Source of the DNA: Acidimicrobiaceae bacterium
GTDB taxonomy: Bacteria > Actinomycetota > Acidimicrobiia > Acidimicrobiales > RAAP-2
Assembly (NCBI GenBank): GCA_027306755.1
Contig: DAHUZE010000075.1
Span: 1 to 44,550, forward strand
Direction of reading: 5' to 3'
DNA: 44,550 nt
The position numbers and the translations under genes are program-made. Shown piece after piece: positions 19,840 through 31,615 of the stretch (within the stretch, counting starts at the first letter, position 1; each line of letters starts with the position of its first letter). Below the pieces are notes generated by a model. That model made no database searches. It was not told where the DNA came from and saw only the letters and a program-made list of their open reading frames with translations.

Positions 19840-19897
19840 GTCGGCCGGCACGCTGGCAGGAAAGCGGTGGGGCCGCGCATCTGGAAGGAGGGTGCAG

Positions 19898-20743
19898 GTG
19901 GCGAGTGTGGTGGACGATACGCAGGTGACGAAGGCAGTGGACGGTCGGGGGGTAGGAGACGTGCCCACGAGGCAGGGCTCGGCTGCCGACCGCTCCTTGG
20001 AACCCGGCCGGGGCGATCGGGCCGCGGGCCCGGCATCGAGGAGCCGGCGACCGGGTGGGAACGTGCCCCTTGTGGCGCTGGTGGTCGCCGCGATCGCGCT
20101 GGGCCTGGCCGGCGTGGGGCTGGGCGTCACGTCCCTGGCTGTGCACCGCACCCCGGCTACGGGTGCAACCGGCGCTTCGGGCGCCCGCGGGTCCCAGGGC
20201 GCGCAGGGACCCCAGGGACCCCAAGGCCTCCAGGGGCAGACCGGGGCCCGTGGCCCCCAGGGGGCCAACGGCGCGACCGGTCCGGCGGGGCCGCGTGGCG
20301 CGACGGGTCCCGCGGGCGCGACGGGGAAGCAGGGCCCGGCAGGGACCATCGCCGGCAGCAGCATCGCCAGCTCCGCGGCCCAGCGCACGGCCGCCGGCGC
20401 TCCGGTGGGCACGACGCTCACGGCTACTGCCACCTGCCCGGCAGGCGGTGTCCTCCTCGGAGGGGGTGCCCGGCTGTCGACCGCCACGGCCAAGACGACA
20501 GCGGCCAAGGCCACAGCCGGGAAGGCCGCGGCGCCCAAGTCGACAGGCACGGGATCGTCAGGCGCAACCTCGCCTGCCGCGGGCTCGAGCGCGGCGGCCG
20601 CTGCCGGATCCGGGTCGCCGGTGGAGCTGCGCTCCAGCTACCCGATCACGAACGGCTGGCGGGCCGTGGCCGTGGTGAGCGGCACGCTTCCCGCCGGCCA
20701 GCAGATGGTCCTCCAGCCCTACGCCGTCTGCGGCAAGCGCTAG
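19898..20743 (+). CDS. Membrane-anchored collagen-like (Gly-X-Y) surface protein
   Basis: 281 aa from GTG 19898, with AAGGAGG (19885-19891) 6 nt upstream; the GTG at 19892 touches the RBS and is rejected. A charged cytoplasmic N-terminus of about 50 residues is followed by one membrane helix ([20 protein letters not shown]) and 20 consecutive Gly-X-Y triplets rich in GPQ, GAT and GPA. Next come an Ala/Thr/Lys-rich linker and a C-terminal domain with two cysteines ([13 protein letters not shown] and the final YAVCGKR), probably disulfide-linked. It should form a trimeric stalk on the cell surface. It is divergent from the two-component operon, and the shared 11-bp repeats suggest common control (inference). 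Confidence 0.9.
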
Positions 20744-21474: not shown

Positions 21475-21527
21475 ACCAGAGAGGACCCGAGGGAACCAAC
21501 CGCCGGGTCGTGGAGGTGCCGACTGCG

Positions 21528-22685
21528 ATGACCACGCCGAGGGAGCTGCTGGCACAGGTGAAGGCCGCCATCGTGGAGGTCTCTCCAGAGGAGGCCGAGG
21601 CGCGGCTCGGCCAGTCGATGTTCCTGGACGTGCGCGAGCCCGATGAGTACCAGCAGGGGGCGGTCCCCGGCGCCGTGCACCTGCCCCGGGGAAACCTGGA
21701 GTTCGGCGTGGAGGGGCGGCTGCCGGACAAGTCGGCCCCGGTGGTCGTCTACTGCGCAGGCGGTACGCGGTCGGCCTTCGCCGCCAAGACGATGAGCGAC
21801 CTCGGCTACGAGGACGTGGTGTCGATGAGCGGCGGGTTCAACCGGTGGAAGGACGAGGGGCACCGATGGGAGGCGCCGCGCACCTTGACGCCGGACCAGC
21901 GCAACCGCTACCAGCGCCACCTCCTGCTGCCCGAGGTCGGCGAGAAGGGCCAGCTCGAGCTGCTGGATTCCAGGGTGCTGCTCCTGGGCGCCGGCGGCCT
22001 GGGCTCGCCCGCCGCGATGTACCTCGCCGCGGCGGGCGTCGGCACGATCGGCATCATCGACATGGACGTGGTCGACGAGTCGAACTTGCAGCGTCAGATC
22101 CTGCACAACATGGACCGAATCGGTGATCGCAAGGTGGACTCGGCCAAGAAGACGCTCACCGCGCTCAACCCTGACGTCACGGTCGCCACCTACGACGTGC
22201 GGCTGGGCGCGGACAACATCTTGGAGATCATCGACGGCTACGACCTGATCGTGGACGGGACGGACAACTTCCCCACCCGGTACCTGGTCAACGATGCGTC
22301 GCTCCTCAAGCGGATCCCGGTCGTCCACGGTTCGATCTTCCGCTTCGAGGGCCAGGTGACGGTGTTCGATCCCTACAACGGCCCGTGCTACCGCTGCCTC
22401 ATCCCCGAGCCGCCGCCGGCGGAGCTCGCCCCGTCGTGCGCCGAGGCCGGCGTGCTGGGCGTCCTGCCCGGCATCGTCGGCTCGATTCAGGCCATCGAGG
22501 CGATCAAGATGCTGCTGGGCCTGGGCGACCCGCTGGTGGGCCGGCTGCTCGCCTACGACGCGCTGGAAGAGCAGTTCCGCACGTTCAACGTCCGGCGGGA
22601 CCCGTCGTGCCCGGCGTGCGGGGAGGGGGCGGGCGAGATCGTCATCGCCGAGTACGACGATCTCTGCATGCCGCATCCGCGCTGA
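21528..22685 (+). CDS. Rhodanese-ThiF fusion: sulfur-carrier adenylyltransferase/sulfurtransferase
   Basis: 385 aa from ATG 21528 (GGAGGT 10 nt upstream). Residues about 20-113 are a rhodanese domain with persulfide Cys76 in VVYCAGGTRSAF. Residues about 124-370 are a MoeB/ThiF E1-like domain: LLLGAGGLGSPAAMYLAAAG, DMDVVDESNLQRQILH, catalytic-loop Cys in LAPSCAEAGVLG, and a zinc site from CYRC and CPAC. The protein should adenylate and thiolate the C-terminus of a small sulfur-carrier protein for molybdopterin, thiamine or cysteine synthesis. MoeZ of mycobacteria has the same two domains in the opposite order. Partner sulfur-carrier genes are not in the window. Confidence 0.92.
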   Translation: MTTPRELLAQVKAAIVEVSPEEAEARLGQSMFLDVREPDEYQQGAVPGAVHLPRGNLEFGVEGRLPDKSAPVVVYCAGGTRSAFAAKTMSDLGYEDVVSMSGGFNRWKDEGHRWEAPRTLTPDQRNRYQRHLLLPEVGEKGQLELLDSRVLLLGAGGLGSPAAMYLAAAGVGTIGIIDMDVVDESNLQRQILHNMDRIGDRKVDSAKKTLTALNPDVTVATYDVRLGADNILEIIDGYDLIVDGTDNFPTRYLVNDASLLKRIPVVHGSIFRFEGQVTVFDPYNGPCYRCLIPEPPPAELAPSCAEAGVLGVLPGIVGSIQAIEAIKMLLGLGDPLVGRLLAYDALEEQFRTFNVRRDPSCPACGEGAGEIVIAEYDDLCMPHPR

Positions 22686-22822: not shown

Positions 22823-22890
22823 CCCGGCCAACAGAGACGTGGCAGCACGCGGTCAGCCCGGGCGGGGCGAGTGCGAGGGAGGTGCATGCC

Positions 22891-24534
22891 ATGCACGTTG
22901 TGCGGGTGGTCGGGACCGTCGTCTCCACGGCGCTGCTGACCGTGTTGGCCACGGTGGTCCCTATGGCCGCAGCAGGTGGCCAGGGCCCGTCGGCTCGGAC
23001 CACCGCGCAGGAGGCGGGCGCAGGCGCGTCACCCGCGGGGTGCGCGAGACCGGCTGCCCCTGGGCACGCTCGGTGCTACCTGTCGGTTCAGCGGGCGGCG
23101 GCCTTCACGGGGGCCAATGCCCCAGCGTGCCCGGTGGACGTCACAGCGGGGTACACCGCGTGCAACATCCAGAGCGCGTACGGGCTCGCCGCGCTGTCCA
23201 AGCACGACGGGAAGGGAACGACCGTGGCGGTGGTGGAGGCCTACGACGACCCGAACGCGACATCGGACCTGGCGGTCTACCGCGCCACATCGCACCTGCC
23301 GGCATGCACCTCGGCCAGCGGCTGCTTCCAGAAGGTCGACCAGTCCGGCGTCCAGGCGACATACCCGCCGGCCACAGCCGGATGGGCACAAGAAGCATCC
23401 CTGGACCTGGACATGGTGTCCGCGGTCTGCCCGAACTGCCACATCCTTCTCGTGGAGGCCAGCTCGAGCGGCTTCGGAGATCTGACCGCGTCGCTGAACG
23501 AGGCGGTGGCCCTGGGGGCCAGGGTGATCTCCGACAGCTGGGGCAACGGGGAGCTCGGGGGCGAGACAGGGTGGGACGGCAGCTTCGACCACCCCGGCGT
23601 GGCGATCACCTTCAGCTCGGGCGACGGCGCCTACCAGGGGGGCGTGCAGTACCCCTCGGCATCCCCCTACGTGACCTCGGTGGGCGGCACGGAGCTGACT
23701 CCGGGGACCGGCGGCAAGGGCTGGACCGAGGCTGCATGGGTGAACGTCCAGAGCGGGAGCCCGCCCACCCAAGGCTCGGGGAGCGGGTGCTCGGCCTACG
23801 AGCCGAAGCCGGCGTGGCAGACCGACACTGCGTGCCCGAGGCGCATGACCGCCGACGTGAGCGCCGTGGCGGCCAACGTTCGCAGCTACGACACCTACCA
23901 GGCAAGTGGCTGGTACTACTCCTTCGGGACGAGCGTGTCCTCGCCCATCGTCGCCGGGATGTACGGGTTGGCCGGCAATCCCGCCGGCAACGGCGTCCCG
24001 GCCTCGGCGCTCTACGGCGCCCCGGCGACCGACTTCCACGACATCACCGTGGGGTCCACCGGGACCTGCACCCCGCCGGCAAGCCACCGGTACTTCTGCA
24101 CGGCCAAGAAGGGGTATGACGGGCCGACCGGCCGAGGGACTCCCAAGGGGATCGGCGGGTTCCTGGTGCCCGCGACCCCGCCCGCCAGCGTCTCGTCGGT
24201 GACGTTCTCCGGGTCCGCGGCCAGCCCCACGATCACCCTCGCCGGTGCGAACTTCGGCCCGTACCCCCCTATCGGCCAGGCAGCGGGATGCAGCACGCCG
24301 GGGGACAACTACGGAACGACCGGCCTCAACTTTGCCGACACGACCGGCGGATGGGAGGCCGGGCAGGACGGCGACTGCATCGGCATCGCGGTCAGCGCAT
24401 GGTCGAGCAGCTCGATCACCTACTCCTTCGGCTCGGGATACGCCACGTACGGCACCGTGGCCGATGGCGATGCGTTCGCGCTGGAGGTGGAGGGGACGTC
24501 GGTGTCGGGGACCGTGAACGGCCTCACCGGTTGA
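22891..24534 (+). CDS. Secreted S53 (sedolisin)-family serine-carboxyl peptidase
   Basis: 547 aa from ATG 22891, with GGAGG 8 nt upstream. The signal peptide is MHVVRVVGTVVSTALLTVLA with an AAA cleavage region near residue 28. The sedolisin catalytic set is in order: Glu168 and Asp172 (WAQEASLDLDMV), oxyanion Asp245 (ITFSSGD) and nucleophile Ser348 (SFGTSVSSPIVAGM). A C-terminal Ser/Thr/Gly-rich beta domain with several cysteines starts around residue 440. Only about 65 residues separate the signal peptide from the catalytic domain, so the usual ~180-residue activation prodomain is missing. Family members are acid-active secreted proteases. The gene stands alone behind its own promoter. Confidence 0.88.
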   Translation: MHVVRVVGTVVSTALLTVLATVVPMAAAGGQGPSARTTAQEAGAGASPAGCARPAAPGHARCYLSVQRAAAFTGANAPACPVDVTAGYTACNIQSAYGLAALSKHDGKGTTVAVVEAYDDPNATSDLAVYRATSHLPACTSASGCFQKVDQSGVQATYPPATAGWAQEASLDLDMVSAVCPNCHILLVEASSSGFGDLTASLNEAVALGARVISDSWGNGELGGETGWDGSFDHPGVAITFSSGDGAYQGGVQYPSASPYVTSVGGTELTPGTGGKGWTEAAWVNVQSGSPPTQGSGSGCSAYEPKPAWQTDTACPRRMTADVSAVAANVRSYDTYQASGWYYSFGTSVSSPIVAGMYGLAGNPAGNGVPASALYGAPATDFHDITVGSTGTCTPPASHRYFCTAKKGYDGPTGRGTPKGIGGFLVPATPPASVSSVTFSGSAASPTITLAGANFGPYPPIGQAAGCSTPGDNYGTTGLNFADTTGGWEAGQDGDCIGIAVSAWSSSSITYSFGSGYATYGTVADGDAFALEVEGTSVSGTVNGLTG

Positions 24535-24701: not shown

Positions 24702-25346
24702 ATGTTCCCGGCGCCTCTCACCATCCCGACGCGGGCACCGCGGGCACTGTGGCTGATCCGCCACGGAGAGAGCACGTGGAACCAACGGGGGTTGTGCCAG
24801 GGGCAGCGACCTGGGCCACGACTCACGTCCCGCGGCCGGCACCAGGCGGACCGCTGCGCTGAGCGTTTGATCGGCGAGCCGATCGGCCTGCTCGTGAGCA
24901 GCGATCTGGAGCGGGCCTTGGAGACCGCCGCCCCGATAGGCCGGGCACTGGGGCTCGTCCCGCTGCCCGACCGCCGGCTGCGGGAGCGAGCCCTGGGAGC
25001 AGCTGAAGGCGAGCCGATCGCATCGCTGGGCACCGACCGCTCCGGGGTCGCCGGGGGTCGGGTGGTCGACGCCGATGCGGCGCCCGAGGGAGGGGAGTCG
25101 GTGCGCCAGCTCTACGACCGGGTGACGGCGTGCGTCGCCGAGCACCTTGGGCGCGGCGACGGCGAGCTGGCGCTGGTGTGCCACGGCGGCGTGGTACGGG
25201 TCCTGCTGGCGTGGCTGTCGGGCACGGGGCCCGAGGCCATGGGCTGGCCCGAGGTGCCCAACGCCGCTCCCGCCCGGCGGATCGCCACCGCCCCAGCGGG
25301 CCAGGACCAGAGCGCCCCAGACCACGAGCAGGAGGAGCACCGATGA
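24702..25346 (+). CDS. Histidine phosphatase (phosphoglycerate-mutase-like), first gene of ComA operon
   Basis: 214 aa from ATG 24702. The phosphohistidine motif is LWLIRHGESTWNQRG (His21). It is followed by the Arg of SSDLERALETA, the acid Glu region RERALGAAEGEP and the second catalytic His in LVCHGGVVRV. The family includes cofactor-dependent mutases and many small-molecule phosphatases. The next gene encodes a phosphosulfolactate-synthase homologue, joined by an ATGA overlap. An attractive role is therefore removal of phosphate from its product, the step done by the unrelated ComB in coenzyme M synthesis (inference). The C-terminal ~25 residues are hydrophilic and poorly conserved in appearance. 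Confidence 0.88.
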   Translation: MFPAPLTIPTRAPRALWLIRHGESTWNQRGLCQGQRPGPRLTSRGRHQADRCAERLIGEPIGLLVSSDLERALETAAPIGRALGLVPLPDRRLRERALGAAEGEPIASLGTDRSGVAGGRVVDADAAPEGGESVRQLYDRVTACVAEHLGRGDGELALVCHGGVVRVLLAWLSGTGPEAMGWPEVPNAAPARRIATAPAGQDQSAPDHEQEEHR

Positions 25347-26161
25347 ACGACACCGCACTTTCGTTGCCAACCCGGAGCGCCAAGCCCCGGACGAGCGGGA
25401 TCACCATGGTGGTCGACGGCGGAGTCCCCTTGGGGACCCTGCGGGACATCGTCGCCAGCGCGGGGGAGTACCTGGATTTCGTGAAGTTCGGGTGGGGGAC
25501 GGCGGTCGTGTCCGGTGAGCTGCCGGCGAAGATCGAGCTGCTGCGGGCGAACGGCATCGAGTTCTACTTCGGGGGACCGCTGTTCGAGAAGCACGTGCTC
25601 CAGGGACGGTTCGACGACTACCGGTCGCTGTGCCACCGCTGGTCCTGCCGCTTCGTCGAGGTGTCCAACGGGACGATCGATCTCTCCAACACGGAGAAGG
25701 CCGGGTATGTCCGCAAGCTGGCCAAGGAGTTCGCGGTGATCTCGGAGGTCGGGTTCAAGGATGCCGATCGCTCCGACATGCTGAGCCCCAGGCGATGGAT
25801 CGAGTACGTGGAGGAGGACCTCCTCGCCGGCGCACGGCTGGTGACCCTGGAGGCACGGGAGAGCGGCCGCTCCGGCATCTGCCATGCCGACGGGCAGCTC
25901 CGGGTGGGACTGGTGGAGGAGGTGGTGGCCGAGCTTCCGAGGGACCTGCTGCTGTTCGAGGCGCCGACCACCGCCCTCCAGGCGCACATGGTCCGGCGGA
26001 TCGGACCGAACGCGAACCTGGGCAACGTGCCGCCCAATGCCGTGCTGGCGCTGGAGACGCTGCGTCTCGGTCTCCGGGCCGACACGCTCACCGAGTTTGA
26101 GGAGCCGCTGGACGACGAGGGCGCAGCCCTGGCGGAGCTGCGGGCGGCGGTGCGGGTATGA
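25343..26161 (+). CDS. Phosphosulfolactate synthase (ComA) family protein
   Basis: 272 aa, overlapping both neighbours by 4 nt (ATGA on each side). The ComA/TIM-barrel signature is clear: GITMVVDGGVP, YLDFVKFGWGTAVV, FYFGGPLFEKH, FVEVSNGTIDL, LEARESGRSGICHADG, LLLFEAPTTALQAHMV and IGPNANLGNV followed by ALETLRLGLRADT. ComA adds sulfite to phosphoenolpyruvate to make (R)-phosphosulfolactate, the first step to sulfolactate or coenzyme M. The methanogen enzyme, as I recall it, has LDKG where this protein has VDGG. The loss of that Lys leaves open a changed substrate, as in other ComA-like proteins. Its neighbours are not the known ComB/ComC/ComDE partners. Confidence 0.88.
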   Translation: MNDTALSLPTRSAKPRTSGITMVVDGGVPLGTLRDIVASAGEYLDFVKFGWGTAVVSGELPAKIELLRANGIEFYFGGPLFEKHVLQGRFDDYRSLCHRWSCRFVEVSNGTIDLSNTEKAGYVRKLAKEFAVISEVGFKDADRSDMLSPRRWIEYVEEDLLAGARLVTLEARESGRSGICHADGQLRVGLVEEVVAELPRDLLLFEAPTTALQAHMVRRIGPNANLGNVPPNAVLALETLRLGLRADTLTEFEEPLDDEGAALAELRAAVRV

Positions 26162-26562
26162 GGGACACCGGCGACGTGTTCCACCTGGCGATCCCCGTCG
26201 GGGACCTGGACGGGGCCCGGCACTTCTACGTGACACTGCTGGGATGCAAGCTGGCTCGCAGCTACCCCGACCGCATCACGGTTGACTTCTTCGGCGACCA
26301 GCTCGTGTGCCACTTGAGCGAGCCCGAGCCCCGGCACGAACCCCTTTCCCTCTATCCCCGCCACTTCGGCGTGACCTTCCGTCGCCGCAAGGACTTCCGG
26401 CGGGTCCACCAGCTGGCCGAGTTGCGCAAGCTTCCCTTCTTCCGCGATGTTGCCGTGCGGTTCGAGGGAACGGCGGAGGAGCACTCCACCTTCGTCCTGC
26501 GAGATCCGTTCGACAATTTGCTCGAGTTCAAGCACTACGGCGACCCGAGGATGATGTATTGA
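26158..26562 (+). CDS. VOC (glyoxalase/dioxygenase-fold) protein
   Basis: 134 aa, ATG 26158 overlapping the ComA-like stop (ATGA). One vicinal-oxygen-chelate module: VFHLAIPVGDLDGARHFYVT, LGCKLARSYPDRITVDFFGD, then RHFGVTFRR and FVLRDPFDNLLEFKHY. Putative metal ligands are His9 (FHLAIP), a His in the RHFGV strand and the Glu of LLEFKHY, as in glyoxalase-type proteins that work as dimers. It ends one base before the acyl ligase gene. VOC proteins can isomerise, epimerise or oxygenate. In this operon it may act on the sulfonate or oxo-acid intermediate (inference). Confidence 0.88.
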   Translation: MRDTGDVFHLAIPVGDLDGARHFYVTLLGCKLARSYPDRITVDFFGDQLVCHLSEPEPRHEPLSLYPRHFGVTFRRRKDFRRVHQLAELRKLPFFRDVAVRFEGTAEEHSTFVLRDPFDNLLEFKHYGDPRMMY

Positions 26563-26563
26563 G

Positions 26564-28126
26564 ATGACCGTGCGAGAGCCGAAGGGGGGCGCGAGCCTGC
26601 GTGCCGGCCCGCTGACGTTGGGCGAGCTGATCGCCGCGCAGTCCTCGGTTGCGCCCCACCGCGTCTACATGGAGGCCGCTGGTGGGGGCCGCCGGGTCAC
26701 GTACGGGGAGCTCCACACCGTCTCGGAGCGTTGGGAGGCATTGCTGCACGACCTCAACGTGCCGCGCGGAGCGCGGGTCGGCATCGCCGTGGCGGACCCC
26801 GTGGACTTCGCCCTCGTGTTCTTGGGCGTCGTTGCCGCCGGACGCACTGCGGCCCCCATCGACCCGGCCGCCACCCCGCCCGAGGTGGGCGCAGCCTGTG
26901 GCCGGATCGAGCCCCGTCTGGTCGTGTCGGACCGCCCAGGCCCGGACGGCGTACTCGAGTGGGTGACCATGCCCCCCGGTTCGTTCACGTTGAATGACGG
27001 CACGTCCGAGGAGCAGGGCACCCGGGCGGCATCCCGTGGGGAAGGGGTTCTCGAGAGCCCCGCCGGCGGAGTGGTCCTCTCCACGTCGGGCACGACCGGG
27101 GTTCCCAAGGTCATCCACCTGGACCAGGCCGCGCTGCTCCATGCCGCCGGCGCCGTGGCCGCCAGCCAGCGCCTCGAGGCGAGCGACCGCGGCTTCAACC
27201 CCCTCCCGCTCTTCCACATCAACGCCGAGGTCGTCGGCCTGCTGGGCACGCTGACGGCGGGCGCGGCGCTCGTGCTGGACGACCGCTTCCACCGGCGAGG
27301 GTTCTGGGAGCTGATGCGCCGCCACGGGGTCACCTGGATCAACGCCGTGCCCGCGGTCCTGGCCCTGCTGGCCGATCTCCAGGACGGGGAGTCCGTGCCG
27401 GACGGTATCCGGTTCGCCCGCTCCGCCTCGGCACCGCTTCCCCTGCCGGTGCTCGACCGCTTCGAGCGCAGGACGGGGATCCCGGTGGTGGAGACGTACG
27501 GCATGACGGAGGCGGCGAGCCAGATCACGGCCAATCCGGTGGACGGCCCGCGCAAGCCGGGTTCGGTCGGGATCCCGGTGGGGGTGGACGTCCGGATCGG
27601 GTCGGCCCCGGCTCCTCCCGCGGTGGTGGGGGCGGTCGGCATCCGGGGTCCCAGTGTGATCAGGGCCTACGCGGCGGGAGGCTACGAGGACCGCGTCAGC
27701 CCTGAGGGCTGGCTGGACACCGGGGACCTCGGGTACCTGGACGAGGACGGCTACCTGTTCCTCGTGGGCCGGGCCGACGACGTGATCAACCGGAGCGGCG
27801 AGAAGATCTACCCGCGGGAGGTCGAGGACGTGGTCCTTGCCGATCCGGCCGTGTCGGCCGCCGCCGTGATCGGGTCCGATCACGAGGTTCTCGGATGCGT
27901 ACCGGTTGCTTACCTGGTCGTAGACGGTGTGCGGGGTCCGGACGACGTGCGGCTGGCCGAGGCGGTCGTGGCCCGGGTGCGGGAGCACTGCGCCTCCCAG
28001 CTCTCCCGGGCCAAGCGCCCGGTTGCGTTCCACGTCGTCAGCGCCCTGCCCCGCGGGGCCAATGGCAAGGTGCGGCGGCATGCCGTCGCGGGAGGGGCGC
28101 CGATCTTCTCGCTGCCGGCGCAGTGA
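26564..28126 (+). CDS. AMP-forming acyl-CoA synthetase/ligase
   Basis: 520 aa from ATG 26564. ANL-family motifs are all present: P-loop LSTSGTTGVPKVIHL, VETYGMTEAASQ, GWLDTGDLGYLDEDGYL, FLVGRADDVINRSGEKIYP and the catalytic Lys of GANGKVRRHA. The style is close to oxalate-CoA and small dicarboxylate ligases (AAE3-like), but substrate cannot be assigned from sequence. It should activate an acid as acyl-AMP and transfer it to CoA or another acceptor. Position between the ComA-like and acyltransferase genes suggests it activates either the sulfonate acid or the acyl group that is later transferred (inference). Its stop overlaps the next GTG start. Confidence 0.92.
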   Translation: MTVREPKGGASLRAGPLTLGELIAAQSSVAPHRVYMEAAGGGRRVTYGELHTVSERWEALLHDLNVPRGARVGIAVADPVDFALVFLGVVAAGRTAAPIDPAATPPEVGAACGRIEPRLVVSDRPGPDGVLEWVTMPPGSFTLNDGTSEEQGTRAASRGEGVLESPAGGVVLSTSGTTGVPKVIHLDQAALLHAAGAVAASQRLEASDRGFNPLPLFHINAEVVGLLGTLTAGAALVLDDRFHRRGFWELMRRHGVTWINAVPAVLALLADLQDGESVPDGIRFARSASAPLPLPVLDRFERRTGIPVVETYGMTEAASQITANPVDGPRKPGSVGIPVGVDVRIGSAPAPPAVVGAVGIRGPSVIRAYAAGGYEDRVSPEGWLDTGDLGYLDEDGYLFLVGRADDVINRSGEKIYPREVEDVVLADPAVSAAAVIGSDHEVLGCVPVAYLVVDGVRGPDDVRLAEAVVARVREHCASQLSRAKRPVAFHVVSALPRGANGKVRRHAVAGGAPIFSLPAQ

Positions 28127-29418
28127 GCGCGGGGCCGGTCGCGACCGGGCTGCCCGGGGTCGCGCACCCCACCCCGCTGCGATCCGGAGCCCGAGAGGGC
28201 CGGAAGAAGAAGCGGCTCGATCACGTGGACGCCATGCGCCCCGTGAAGCAGGCCGGCGTGGTGTCAACCCACTCGTTGCTGGCGTTCGCACCCGCAGCGG
28301 CCCTTTCGGTGGGTGGAGCGTTGATGCTCCTGCACGTGACGAGGGAGGCGTTCCTCTTCATCTCGGCGTGCATGCTCACGTACGGCTATCAGGACCTGAC
28401 CAGGATCGGCTACGGCTACTTCTATCGGCGACGGGCGGTGGCCGTAGCCCTCCCGTACGCCTGCTGGACGCTGATCTACTTCTGGTTGACCTTGCCGGCG
28501 GGTTTGACGCCCTGGAGCGGGATTGCCCACTTCGCCTACCTGTTCGGCACCGGCTACTACCAGCTCTACTACCTGGTGGTCATCATGCAGTTCTACCTGG
28601 TGTTCCCGGCGCTCTTCTGGCTGGTCCGCAAGGCCCGGGGACACCACCTCGCGCTGGTGCTGGCGAGCCTGGCCGTGCAGGTGGCGGTCACCAGCCTCAT
28701 GCACTGGAACGTGCTCCCGCCCCAGATGCGGGGGTTCTGGGCCACCCGCGAGATCGTCTCCTACCCGTTCTACCTGGTGTCGGGAATGGTGGTGGCCCTG
28801 CGACTGGACGCGGTCCACCGTTGGGTGTGCCGGCACGGCTGGCGGATATTTGCCGCCACTGTGGCGGCAGCCGTCGTTGCCGAGGCGTGGTACGTGGCCG
28901 CCGACCGGCAGCTGGTGGGGTGGCTGGGCTCGGCGTCGGATCCGCTGCAGCCCATCGTGATCCCCTTCAACATCGGGGCGATCGCCTGCCTGTACCTCTT
29001 CGGTGTGTGGCTGGTGGCGCCCCGGCGTTCCCGCAGGATCCGGGTGCTGGCCCGATCGGGGTCCGACAACTCCTACAGCGTCTACCTTGCGCAGATGGTG
29101 TTCGTGATGGCGTTGGAGGACCTTTCCTACCGGTCCCTTGACCGCCTGGTCCCGTGGCCGGTGGTGGCGGCGGTGGGGGTTGCCGTCGTGTTCCTGGCCT
29201 GCGTGCTGCTGTCCAGCATCCTGGCCCGGACGCCGCTGTCGGTCGCGCTCACCGGTCGGACCCGGGAGCGCTGGGCGACCTGGTTGCCCGAGGAGTGGCG
29301 CCGGACGCCCCGGCGGTGGCCGGCGGGCCACGTGGCGTCGCCGATCGACGAGGACGAGCGGGCGCCCGGCTCGCGGGGCTCGTGGATGAGCGAGGCGGCC
29401 GGGGCGGCCCGGGGATGA
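28123..29418 (+). CDS. Acyltransferase-3 family membrane protein, copy 1
   Basis: 431 aa from GTG 28123, overlapping the ligase stop by 4 nt (GTGA). A basic cytoplasmic start leads to the family's catalytic motif in helix 1 (HVDAMRPVKQAGVVSTHSLL: Arg39, His50) and about ten membrane segments. A conserved loop reads GTGYYQLYYLVVIMQFYLVF. Members acylate membrane or exported sugars, lipids and peptides, usually taking the acyl group from CoA in the cytoplasm. The C-terminal ~50 residues are charged and cytoplasmic. The next gene is a clear paralogue, so this is a tandem duplication within the operon. Confidence 0.9.
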   Translation: MSAGPVATGLPGVAHPTPLRSGAREGRKKKRLDHVDAMRPVKQAGVVSTHSLLAFAPAAALSVGGALMLLHVTREAFLFISACMLTYGYQDLTRIGYGYFYRRRAVAVALPYACWTLIYFWLTLPAGLTPWSGIAHFAYLFGTGYYQLYYLVVIMQFYLVFPALFWLVRKARGHHLALVLASLAVQVAVTSLMHWNVLPPQMRGFWATREIVSYPFYLVSGMVVALRLDAVHRWVCRHGWRIFAATVAAAVVAEAWYVAADRQLVGWLGSASDPLQPIVIPFNIGAIACLYLFGVWLVAPRRSRRIRVLARSGSDNSYSVYLAQMVFVMALEDLSYRSLDRLVPWPVVAAVGVAVVFLACVLLSSILARTPLSVALTGRTRERWATWLPEEWRRTPRRWPAGHVASPIDEDERAPGSRGSWMSEAAGAARG

Positions 29419-30728
29419 CGGGCGGGGGTGCCCAGCCCGAGAGGGAGGGGAGGACGGGCGACCCCGCCGAGGCCGAACCTGGGATCACGAGCGGCGCCGA
29501 GCTGCCGGACCAGCCGGCCCCGGAGCGCACCCGCTACTACCTGCGGGCCTTCGACCTCTTCCGGGTGATCGCCTTCGTGGGCGTGGTGGCGCAGCATGCG
29601 GTGCTGTGGCCGGTGACGCCGGGGAGCCCGATCGGCTGGAGCCTGGTCATGGCCCTCCATGCCACCCGCAACGTCTTCTTCTTCCTGGCGACGCTGGTTG
29701 CCGTCTACAGCCAGCTGGAGCGGCCACGTTCGGCCGCCAGGCTGTGGGTCCGCCGGATCGGCACCGCAGTCGTGCCGTACCTCGCCTGGACGATGATCTA
29801 CTTCTGCTATTCGGTCGCGACGACATCGGGTGCCGCGGCCCGGCCGGCCCCAACCCTGTGGACCGACCTCTACCGCGGCTATTACCAGCTGTACTTCCTG
29901 GTGGTCCTGTTCCAGGTGTACCTGGTCCTGCCGGGCATCGTCTGGCTCGTCCGCCGCACCCGCGGCCACCACCACTGGGTGTTCGCCGCCAGCCTGGCCC
30001 TCCAGCTGGCGATGATGACCCTCTCGCACTACTTCAGCTTCTCCGCCGGCTTCTGGCACGGACTGCGGGCCGTGGACCTCGCACTCATCACATCGAGGCT
30101 GATCGTCGGGTACCAGCTCTACGTCGTGGCCGGCGCGCTGGCGGCCGGGCACCTCGGAGAGGTCCACCGGGTGCTCGATCGGCACAACGGAGCCGTCCTG
30201 GCGGGCTTCCTCGCCATGCTCGCCGTGGCCGAGGGTTGCTACGCGGCCGGCCTGCTGCAGGGGCAGGCGCCGGGCCACGCGTCGGACCTCTTCCAGCCGG
30301 TGGCAGCCCTGTGGTTCCTGGCCGCCTGCTTCGGGCTGTGGGCGGTGGGGATCCGGTGGGCCCGCCGTGGAGCCACCCGCTCACCCACCCGGCTCGACCG
30401 GGCGGTGACCTGGGGATCCGACGCGTCGGGGGGTTACTACCTGTCCCACGTGCTGGTGCTCCAGCTGATCTTCCTGGGCCTCGAGCACATTGGCCTGACC
30501 GGTCCGTCAACCTGGGGTGCGACGAGCGCGGTCCTTCTGGTCGGCACGCTGGCGGGTTCGGGAGCCCTCGTCGCCGGGCTGTGGCGGACCCCCCTGCGCA
30601 CCGTGCTCACCGGTCCGGACCGGAGCCGCCAGCGGCAGGCCTACCCGGCGTTCCCGGCCCCGGATCAGGCGCCGAGCACGGGGCCGGCGGTGATGGCGGC
30701 GGCCACGGCGTCGGCGATGGCCCTGTAG
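29415..30728 (+). CDS. Acyltransferase-3 family membrane protein, copy 2
   Basis: 437 aa from ATG 29415, overlapping the previous stop (ATGA). The cytoplasmic N-terminus is 45 residues of Gly/Glu/Pro-rich sequence. The catalytic helix RAFDLFRVIAFVGVVAQH follows (Arg50, His61), then about ten membrane segments. The loop RGYYQLYFLVVLFQVYLVLP closely matches copy 1, showing common origin. The last ~20 residues (rich in Ala and Ser) overlap the 3' end of the convergent SGNH hydrolase gene by 64 nt. Two acyltransferases in one operon suggest two acylation sites or a heterodimer (inference). Confidence 0.9.
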   Translation: MTGGGAQPEREGRTGDPAEAEPGITSGAELPDQPAPERTRYYLRAFDLFRVIAFVGVVAQHAVLWPVTPGSPIGWSLVMALHATRNVFFFLATLVAVYSQLERPRSAARLWVRRIGTAVVPYLAWTMIYFCYSVATTSGAAARPAPTLWTDLYRGYYQLYFLVVLFQVYLVLPGIVWLVRRTRGHHHWVFAASLALQLAMMTLSHYFSFSAGFWHGLRAVDLALITSRLIVGYQLYVVAGALAAGHLGEVHRVLDRHNGAVLAGFLAMLAVAEGCYAAGLLQGQAPGHASDLFQPVAALWFLAACFGLWAVGIRWARRGATRSPTRLDRAVTWGSDASGGYYLSHVLVLQLIFLGLEHIGLTGPSTWGATSAVLLVGTLAGSGALVAGLWRTPLRTVLTGPDRSRQRQAYPAFPAPDQAPSTGPAVMAAATASAMAL

Positions 30729-31615
30729 CCGGCGACGTTGGGGTGCAGGTTGTGCTCGGGGGTGCACATCCAGGTGAGCGCGCAGGTTTGGGCGACCCCC
30801 TGGGAGACCGAGCCGTGGCGGGCCGAGGAGACCCGGGCCCGGCTGTCTGTGTGGTAGGCGCCGGGAACGTTGGCCACCAGCGCGCCGGCGGCGGTGTAGA
30901 TGGCGGCGAGCTCGTTGTTCAGCTTGTCGATCACGATCTCGCTGGCTCGGGCGAACGCCGCCTGGCCCCGCAGGAACTCGGCGAGGTAGGGGTCGCTGTG
31001 CTCGAGCCCGACGATCGTCAAGTGCGGGCCGCCGGCCGCCCTGAGCCGGGCCAGGATGGCCGGGAGGCTCTGGCGGACCTGCTGGAGGCCCGCGCTGACG
31101 CACGCTTGGTCCACCACGTCGTGGCGGAGGCACGGCCAGACGTCGTTGAACCCGAGGTCCACGGTTGCGAGGACCGTCCGGCCGGCCCGCTGGCGAAGGA
31201 GCTGGACCGCTGTGGCCACCTCCGAACCGGCCGGGTACCGGCAGCTGTGCCCCTTGCCTGCGCTCGAGATGCCCGGAAGTCCCGGGCTGACCCCGGTGAG
31301 CGCGGCCACCGAGGTGATCCCCGGGCAGCCCAGCTCGGTGAGGGCGAGGCCGGGCCAGCGGGACTGCTCGGTCCGGACCAGGTCGTTGGCGTACCCGCTG
31401 GTGGTGGGCGCGCCGTGGTGCAGCCCCGGCAGCGGCTGGTACCCCACGGCCTCGGACGCGCCCACGGCGATGTAGTACGAGGGGGCGACGGTGTTCACGC
31501 CTGATCGCAGGGCGCCCGCGGCGGGCGCGCCGGCAATCGCGGCGACGCCAGCGCCCATGGCCGCGGCGAGCGCGGCGGACGCCCCGATCCGAACGGCACT
31601 CCCCACGATCCCCAT
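30665..31615 (-). CDS. Secreted SGNH/GDSL-type hydrolase
   Basis: 316 aa from ATG 31615, no RBS but a leaderless-type -10 box upstream. The signal peptide is MGIVGSAVRIGASAALAAAM with an AGA-type cleavage zone. SGNH blocks are present in order: block I YIAVGASEAVGYQP (nucleophile Ser54, with Ala replacing the Asp of GDS), block III LGFNDVW (the Asn) and block V HNLHPNVAGYRAIADAV (catalytic His). Cysteines at several points suggest disulfides. Members are esterases or acetyltransferase partners acting outside the cell. It faces the acyltransferase operon, and SGNH domains commonly work with acyltransferase-3 proteins, so a joint role is possible (inference). Confidence 0.87.
   Translation of the reverse strand: MGIVGSAVRIGASAALAAAMGAGVAAIAGAPAAGALRSGVNTVAPSYYIAVGASEAVGYQPLPGLHHGAPTTSGYANDLVRTEQSRWPGLALTELGCPGITSVAALTGVSPGLPGISSAGKGHSCRYPAGSEVATAVQLLRQRAGRTVLATVDLGFNDVWPCLRHDVVDQACVSAGLQQVRQSLPAILARLRAAGGPHLTIVGLEHSDPYLAEFLRGQAAFARASEIVIDKLNNELAAIYTAAGALVANVPGAYHTDSRARVSSARHGSVSQGVAQTCALTWMCTPEHNLHPNVAGYRAIADAVAAAITAGPVLGA

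Follow-up and report, generated by a model that had tools for sequence, protein, structure and literature searches.

What does a ComA homologue make when its gene is followed by genes for a ligase and two membrane acyltransferases? The question is raised by six open reading frames on one strand, at positions 24702–30728 of a 44,550-nt stretch of DNA from an Acidimicrobiaceae bacterium (contig DAHUZE010000075.1; the whole stretch is termed the window). They represent the local form of a conserved gene system, which is real. Its core consists of ComA, a small protein of the VOC (vicinal oxygen chelate) family, an AMP-forming ligase and an acyltransferase-3 (AT3) protein. The most likely function, judging from homology and gene context, would be synthesis of a sulfolactyl group, its activation and its extracytoplasmic transfer. 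The open reading frames, with one neighbouring gene, are:

24702–25346, + strand: histidine phosphatase (branch 1), predicted phosphosulfolactate phosphatase, the substrate being assigned from its position; His_Phos_1 141.1 bits
25343–26161, + strand: ComA homologue, predicted phosphosulfolactate synthase; PF02679 261.2 bits (cut-off 25.2)
26158–26562, + strand: predicted metalloprotein of the VOC family, close relative of PDB 3rri; Pfam Glyoxalase 38.9 bits
26564–28126, + strand: AMP-forming acyl-CoA ligase, nearest solved relatives oxalate-CoA ligases; Pfam AMP-binding 182.2 bits
28123–29418, + strand: AT3, copy 1; PF01757 102 bits (cut-off 31); R39-x10-H50
29415–30728, + strand: AT3, copy 2; PF01757 86.9 bits (cut-off 31); R50-x10-H61
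30665–31615, − strand: SGNH (GDSL-type) hydrolase, a possible partner; gene call, convergent, with a 64-nt overlap with the last AT3

Conservation of the gene cluster

Each of the six open reading frames scores above the cut-off for a Pfam family. The junctions, in gene order, are ATGA, ATGA, TGA-G-ATG (a 1-nt gap), GTGA and ATGA. An earlier note on this DNA had described six genes coupled by ATGA/GTGA overlaps or a 1-nt gap, and this arrangement is borne out by the open reading frames, the Pfam families and the reading of the junctions. The window ComA is the only ComA match in its own genome, and the AT3 pair are the only AT3 matches in the assembly, which is 82% complete.

A ComA match is present in 15 of 61 genomes (the own genome and 60 relatives), and in 11 of the 13 genomes of the own genus. 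The ComA loci of 10 same-genus relatives all display VOC and ligase genes downstream of ComA, and nine have the phosphatase gene upstream. An AT3 gene follows the ligase in eight of them; the remaining two contigs stop at or just past the ligase.

A VOC profile was scanned over named genomes, and the best 80 of 248 VOC relatives, ranked by VOC similarity, are termed the named loci (some are from the same genomes as loci with G numbers). A same-strand ComA lies within 1.5 kb upstream of the VOC gene in 71 of the 80. Gene calls up to four genes from VOC show a ligase in 60 loci and an AT3 in 52. An alternative ligase count of 61 includes L081, which has an AT3 only (the fused AT3-ligase described below was probably among the queries). 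A histidine phosphatase is found within 6 kb in 38 loci, not always inside the operon. The gene maps are from a codon-usage caller with rough starts; its start for the window phosphatase is wrong, and in four loci it failed to call the VOC gene. The R-x10-H motif is seen in the first 140 residues of 53 of 59 AT3 calls and RHG in 31 of 37 phosphatase calls, most of the misses probably being wrong starts.

The order of the genes varies. The commonest is ComA-VOC-LIG-AT3 (LIG, ligase), found in 25 of the 80 loci, and the same order with AT3 doubled is present in four, all from same-genus genomes. Others are LIG-AT3-ComA-VOC (eight), divergent AT3-LIG / ComA-VOC (three), ComA-VOC-AT3-LIG (two), AT3-LIG-ComA-VOC (one) and ComA-VOC alone (13), with the remainder showing partial or other orders. 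In one locus, L057, a fused AT3-ligase is followed by ComA-VOC. The fusion is confirmed by Pfam, with AT3 at residues 1–328 and AMP-binding at 407–843 of an 856-residue protein. The membership is thus constant under a reshuffled order and two of the members can be fused, which points to a joint function.

The core recurs across other families and phyla. This conservation, together with the co-occurrence given below, rules out chance neighbours. A comparison of gene order had been suggested in the earlier note, and conservation in relatives holds (10 of 10 same-genus loci, 71 of 80 named loci). The six-gene form described there is real, but it is only a local version of the wider core of ComA-VOC with ligase and AT3. 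The VOC protein, to which no role had been assigned, turns out to be the most constant partner of ComA.

Co-occurrence was analyzed in 395 genomes of the own class, 33 of which contain ComA. The VOC matches are split into 12 genomes with E = 2.5e-64 or better and a next match at only 1.2e-23. All 12 strong-VOC genomes are ComA-positive, and by coordinates ComA and VOC are adjacent in 12 of 12. The ligase matches are similarly split: 12 genomes are below 1e-140, all ComA-positive, and the next genome is at 6.2e-118. This gap rules out a generic ligase within the class. The two sets overlap in 11 genomes (G193 has the ligase without VOC, and G245 has VOC without a strong ligase), and none is among the 362 genomes without ComA. 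The ComAs of the class that lack VOC have different neighbours.

Fisher values for the co-occurrence are 1.4e-14, 1.4e-14 and 1.8e-19, and at the genus level 7.7e-07 (VOC with ComA) and 6.0e-10 (VOC with ligase); these are inflated, because the genomes are related and part of them also went into the profiles. ComA-adjacent VOC proteins were used to build the VOC profile (A1), to which 8 of the 12 strong-VOC genomes gave a row; of the 12 strong-ligase genomes, 3 are represented by rows in the ligase profile (A3). Strong matches in ComA-less genomes could have been revealed by these profiles, but none was obtained in the 362.

Families and motifs of the encoded proteins

The solved chain nearest to the window ComA is 1u83 (E = 2.5e-75), which we take to be Bacillus subtilis YitD. 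A quick tree was made from 129 ComA sequences of at least 190 residues (shorter ones were dropped; 105 remained after removing identical sequences) and two PDB chains. In this tree all 79 VOC-linked ComAs are in one supported group (SH-aLRT 99) with 1u83 and two ComAs without VOC on the fetched DNA; long-branch joins are flagged, including the join that places 1u83. By its scores the window ComA is a member of the ComA family but not of the archaeal type, because it is below the cut-off of the archaeal equivalog (see below) and nearer to the B. subtilis enzyme. Of 20 genomes searched, 19 carry a gene of the 3′-phosphoadenosine-5′-phosphosulfate (PAPS) reductase family, a possible sulfite source.

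The RHG motif can be read in the translation of the window phosphatase. In two proteobacterial loci, L151 and L159, a ComB-family gene (PF04029) is found directly after ComA-VOC (L151 ComB, 123.3 bits; Pfam cut-off 26.4). This suggests a route via phosphosulfolactate in which the histidine phosphatase would replace ComB, and the two loci are the best sign of such a passage. They thus lend support to the claim in the earlier note that a histidine phosphatase is at the place of ComB. The same note considered ComB, ComC and ComD/E to be absent. The own genome, which is 82% complete, yielded no PF04029 match, against 16 positives among the 50 genomes searched, and PF02615 (Ldh_2, the ComC family) has none in eight own-genus genomes including the own (5 of 20 overall have one). 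On these results the coenzyme M pathway was rejected as the role of the cluster, no search having been made for ComD/E.

Among solved structures, the VOC family profile finds 3rri, an Alicyclobacillus acidocaldarius protein, first (E = 5.8e-66; identity 64% by fold search), followed by fosfomycin-resistance folds. The AlphaFold2 model of the window VOC protein is confident (mean pLDDT 91.1). An NCBIfam search with this protein gave no family. All 17 rows keep residues H52, H69 and E123, and 16 keep H9; the remaining row begins after H9. In a MAFFT alignment H9, H52, H69 and E123 correspond to H5, E56, H74 and E122 of Escherichia coli GloA, which we take to be the numbering of its ligands, i.e. 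there is a His for Glu at the second position; hhalign aligned only 40 columns. That the VOC protein is itself the phosphatase is unlikely, given the histidine phosphatase within 6 kb in 38 of the 80 named loci and the ComB-family gene that follows in two. An ordinary 2-His-1-Glu dioxygenase is a possible reading, but position 2 of the glyoxalase site is a conserved His.

The solved structures closest to the window ligase are the oxalate-CoA ligases 5ie0 (E = 1.4e-66), 6qjz (E = 1.2e-59) and 8aff (E = 3.1e-54). Oxalate-CoA ligases (Arabidopsis AAE3, Lathyrus and yeast) are also nearest to the ligases of a proteobacterial metagenome-assembled genome (MAG) and of Actinomycetospora (three AT3-linked ligases were tested). 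The window ligase shares the RSxSA motif with them, and their LFHVHG reads LFHINA. The second His of LFHVHG in the oxalate ligases is replaced in the cluster ligases by Asn220, which together with Arg286 is invariant in 64 of 64 aligned sequences (this count excludes three ligases of the loci described next, one unrelated ligase and six duplicate loci).

Three loci resembling those of nonribosomal peptide synthetases (NRPS) display ComA-VOC with another ligase near carrier-protein genes: L102 (Actinomadura rubrisoli), L104 (Streptomyces physcomitrii) and L158 (a Streptomyces MAG). A condensation domain is encoded in one of them; none of the three showed an AT3 within 6 kb. The one ligase of this type that was tested against structures is closest to the malonyl-CoA ligase MatB (E = 1.7e-107), and all three have the same best NCBIfam family, below cut-off. 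Thus two ligase lineages are each near enzymes of small doubly charged acids, which fits a sulfolactate-like substrate. L102, L104 and L158 are candidate sources of sulfonated natural products.

Both AT3 copies of the window retain the R-x10-H motif. For AT3 domains, which according to models may present acyl-CoA outward, this motif is described as absolutely conserved (PMC9833829, available part). AT3 enzymes that add succinyl to glycans are known (PMC9558356); in the available part of this review sulfonate is not named as a donor group and the word sulfolactate is absent. The earlier note had an activated acid passed on to a membrane acyltransferase, and the AT3-ligase fusion speaks for this, as does the presence of the ligase in the same genomes as ComA and VOC.

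Proposed pathway and alternative explanations

The operon may encode a pathway dedicated to assembling a sulfonated C3 acyl group and delivering it to the outer side of the membrane; this is put at close to, but below, an even chance. From the observed genes, families, motifs, gene order, co-occurrence and fusion we infer the following catalytic steps and acceptor. ComA would join sulfite to phosphoenolpyruvate (PEP) to form phosphosulfolactate, and the histidine phosphatase (a ComB-family enzyme in the two proteobacterial loci) would strip the phosphate to give 3-sulfolactate. These two steps are supported by homology and context. The VOC protein may use a glyoxalase-I-like four-ligand site to act on a product of ComA, possibly by epimerisation or isomerisation; of all the steps, this one is weakly supported and the least certain. 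The AMP-forming ligase would form the CoA thioester of the acid (sulfolactyl-CoA), and AT3 would accept the acyl-CoA on the cytoplasmic side and pass its acyl moiety to an extracytoplasmic acceptor, for which a hydroxyl of an exported glycan or glycolipid is the likeliest candidate. These last two steps are moderately supported.

A secreted SGNH hydrolase may edit or remove the acyl group. In 21 of the 80 named loci a member of this family is found no more than 7 kb from the VOC gene. The PF13472 score of 38 bits (cut-off 32.9) belongs to a homologue in a same-genus locus (L080:13616-14560), not to the window copy.

In a broader form the proposal would be that bacteria of several phyla make sulfolactyl-CoA. 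In most of the actinobacterial loci seen, AT3 would use it to form sulfonate esters with a permanent charge on an exported surface polymer or lipid, in a few Streptomyces/Actinomadura relatives it would enter NRPS-like metabolism, and VOC would be a new pathway enzyme. This form is offered tentatively, as something that falls somewhat short of an even chance.

Several results weigh against the sulfolactyl pathway. The NCBIfam families nearest to the AT3-linked ligases bear the names of fatty-acid ligases (FadD7 family or long-chain), none of them reaching its cut-off (window ligase against the FadD7 equivalog, 259.4 bits; cut-off 650), so that a fatty acid is a possible substrate and homology does not settle the matter. 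The window ComA has 217.9 bits against the archaeal ComA equivalog TIGR03849, below its cut-off of 280. The L151 ComB is below every NCBIfam phosphosulfolactate-phosphatase cut-off, and four of eight own-genus genomes have a weak PF04029 match elsewhere (47–55 bits). Nine of the named loci have no adjacent ComA; it is elsewhere in the genome for L092, L132, L141, L146 and L156, but a genome search found none for L133, L136, L142 and L155, although VOC is present. There are also the 13 loci that have ComA-VOC without a nearby ligase or AT3, some of which are at contig edges. In G352, one of the loci with ComA-VOC only, the ligase is on another contig.

Identical genes would be required if sulfolactate were the acceptor, i.e. 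if the ligase activated a fatty or other acid and AT3 acylated the sulfolactate hydroxyl, giving an acyl-sulfolactate sulfonolipid. The fatty-acid names of the ligase, below cut-off as they are, agree with this, but its nearest solved relatives use small acids, oxalate first, and the three NRPS-like loci, with a ligase of the other lineage near malonyl-CoA ligase, fit activation of the small acid of ComA-VOC. A sulfonolipid of this kind is therefore considered unlikely. The position of the window ComA below the archaeal cut-off would also allow it to add a different nucleophile to PEP, with activation and AT3 transfer of a non-sulfonate product; this appears quite improbable, because 1u83 nests among the VOC-linked ComAs (in the quick tree, where long branches are flagged) and because L151 and L159 have a ComB-family gene after ComA-VOC.

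A very doubtful alternative is that VOC supplies the sulfite by metal-dependent sulfur oxidation, the remaining pathway being as proposed. In its favour, no other gene is as constant a partner of ComA as VOC, and yitBA-yisZ of B. subtilis are presumably sulfate-assimilation-type genes, with no VOC gene known there. In that species the operon yitCD shares late expression with yitBA-yisZ (PMC517825, available part). Set against this are the PAPS reductase family gene already present in nearly all genomes searched and the apparent retention of all four glyoxalase-type ligand positions; nor is any VOC enzyme known to have such an activity. It is least probable that sulfolactate is only a free solute or a coenzyme M precursor, with the ligase and AT3 as bystanders. 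The Alicyclobacillus loci, with ComA-VOC and neither ligase nor AT3, are in keeping with it, as is sulfolactate as a free spore constituent in B. subtilis, described in the available part of PMC517825. It is opposed by the 11 ComA-positive genomes common to the strong-ligase and strong-VOC sets, by the ligase-AT3 fusion, and by the absence of Ldh_2 in eight of eight own-genus genomes and of PF04029 in the own genome.

Related systems and neighbouring genes

Coenzyme M biosynthesis in archaea and bacteria (ComABCDE; Xanthobacter-type pathway) has the same ComA family as its first step; here, however, PF04029 and PF02615 are without a match in the own genome and a ligase and AT3 follow ComA-VOC instead. 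Dlt D-alanylation uses an adenylating enzyme and an MBOAT protein to decorate a surface polymer. It resembles the proposed system in that an adenylating enzyme supplies a membrane acyltransferase for surface-polymer decoration, but it differs in that the acyltransferase here is AT3 and not MBOAT, the operon has no carrier-protein gene and the acid is another one. In surface acylation by AT3 proteins (OafA/OafB, OpgC, ExoH, IcaC), the AT3 domain likewise has R-x10-H, but common acyl-CoAs are used, whereas the operon described here appears to make and activate its own acyl group, a sulfonate if so. Succinyl, an anionic donor group like the proposed sulfolactyl, is among the groups treated in the available part of PMC9558356.

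If the sulfolactyl pathway exists, it would add a new type to the decorations of cell surfaces. Known surface acylation involves acetyl, succinyl and a few other groups, and a sulfonate made from PEP and sulfite would give a surface charge that acid cannot neutralise. Alicyclobacillus and Acidiferrimicrobium, which are among the carriers, are presumably acid-habitat genera. The pathway would also provide a function for a VOC family whose close structure, 3rri, bears a generic title only, and a pointer to sulfonated natural products in Streptomyces relatives. The cluster is found in named isolates of Pseudonocardia, Actinomycetospora, Nocardia and Frankia, and is thus directly testable. The gene set was not found described in the literature searched, most subscription journals being outside its scope, so that absence from print is not proven; sulfolactyl-CoA as a building block was not found in that literature either.

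To our knowledge, VOC, ligase and AT3 partners are all absent from the B. subtilis yitCD operon. Its ComA is of the same clade (1u83) and has a phosphatase-type partner gene. It is inferred to make phosphosulfolactate, with sulfolactate as the inferred product, which accounts for 5% of spore dry weight (PMC517825, available part). Unlike the acid proposed here, this sulfolactate is free in the spores and is not an activated acid. The Alicyclobacillus loci adjoin GerA-type spore-germination genes (Pfam was run on L120, from Alicyclobacillus mali, only; the related loci show the same gene clusters), and the L120 ComA-VOC next to germination genes fits spore sulfolactate. An Alicyclobacillus genome paper mentions comA, by annotation, in its available part (PMC10562698).

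Several other genes are found beside the named loci. L133, L136 and L155 display the order LIG-AT3-VOC with no ComA between, in draft genomes without a ComA match. In L141 and L146, VOC comes after a DUF2891 gene (Pfam, L141 copy) with no ComA nearby, and adjacent ComA and ComB-family genes are on another contig. An aldehyde dehydrogenase gene is beside the cluster in L061, L107, L108, L116, L126 and L128, from several lineages (Pfam/NCBIfam, L107 copy only). A putative secreted esterase family is within 6 kb in 11 of the 80 loci (L093, L099, L126, L140 and L150 among them); Pfam gives no match for the copy in L093, whose only NCBIfam match, to a polyhydroxyalkanoate depolymerase family, is below cut-off.

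In the window itself, a rhodanese plus ThiF/MoeB-like gene (assigned by eye) is at positions 21510–22685 (+), upstream of the operon, and is also found there in several same-genus loci. This may be a sulfur-transfer link or plain synteny, both of which are possible. Positions 22882–24534 (+) encode a secreted protein that by eye resembles a sedolisin (S53) acid protease. At positions 19892–20743 (+) there is a predicted membrane-anchored protein with collagen-like Gly-X-Y repeats in its translation.

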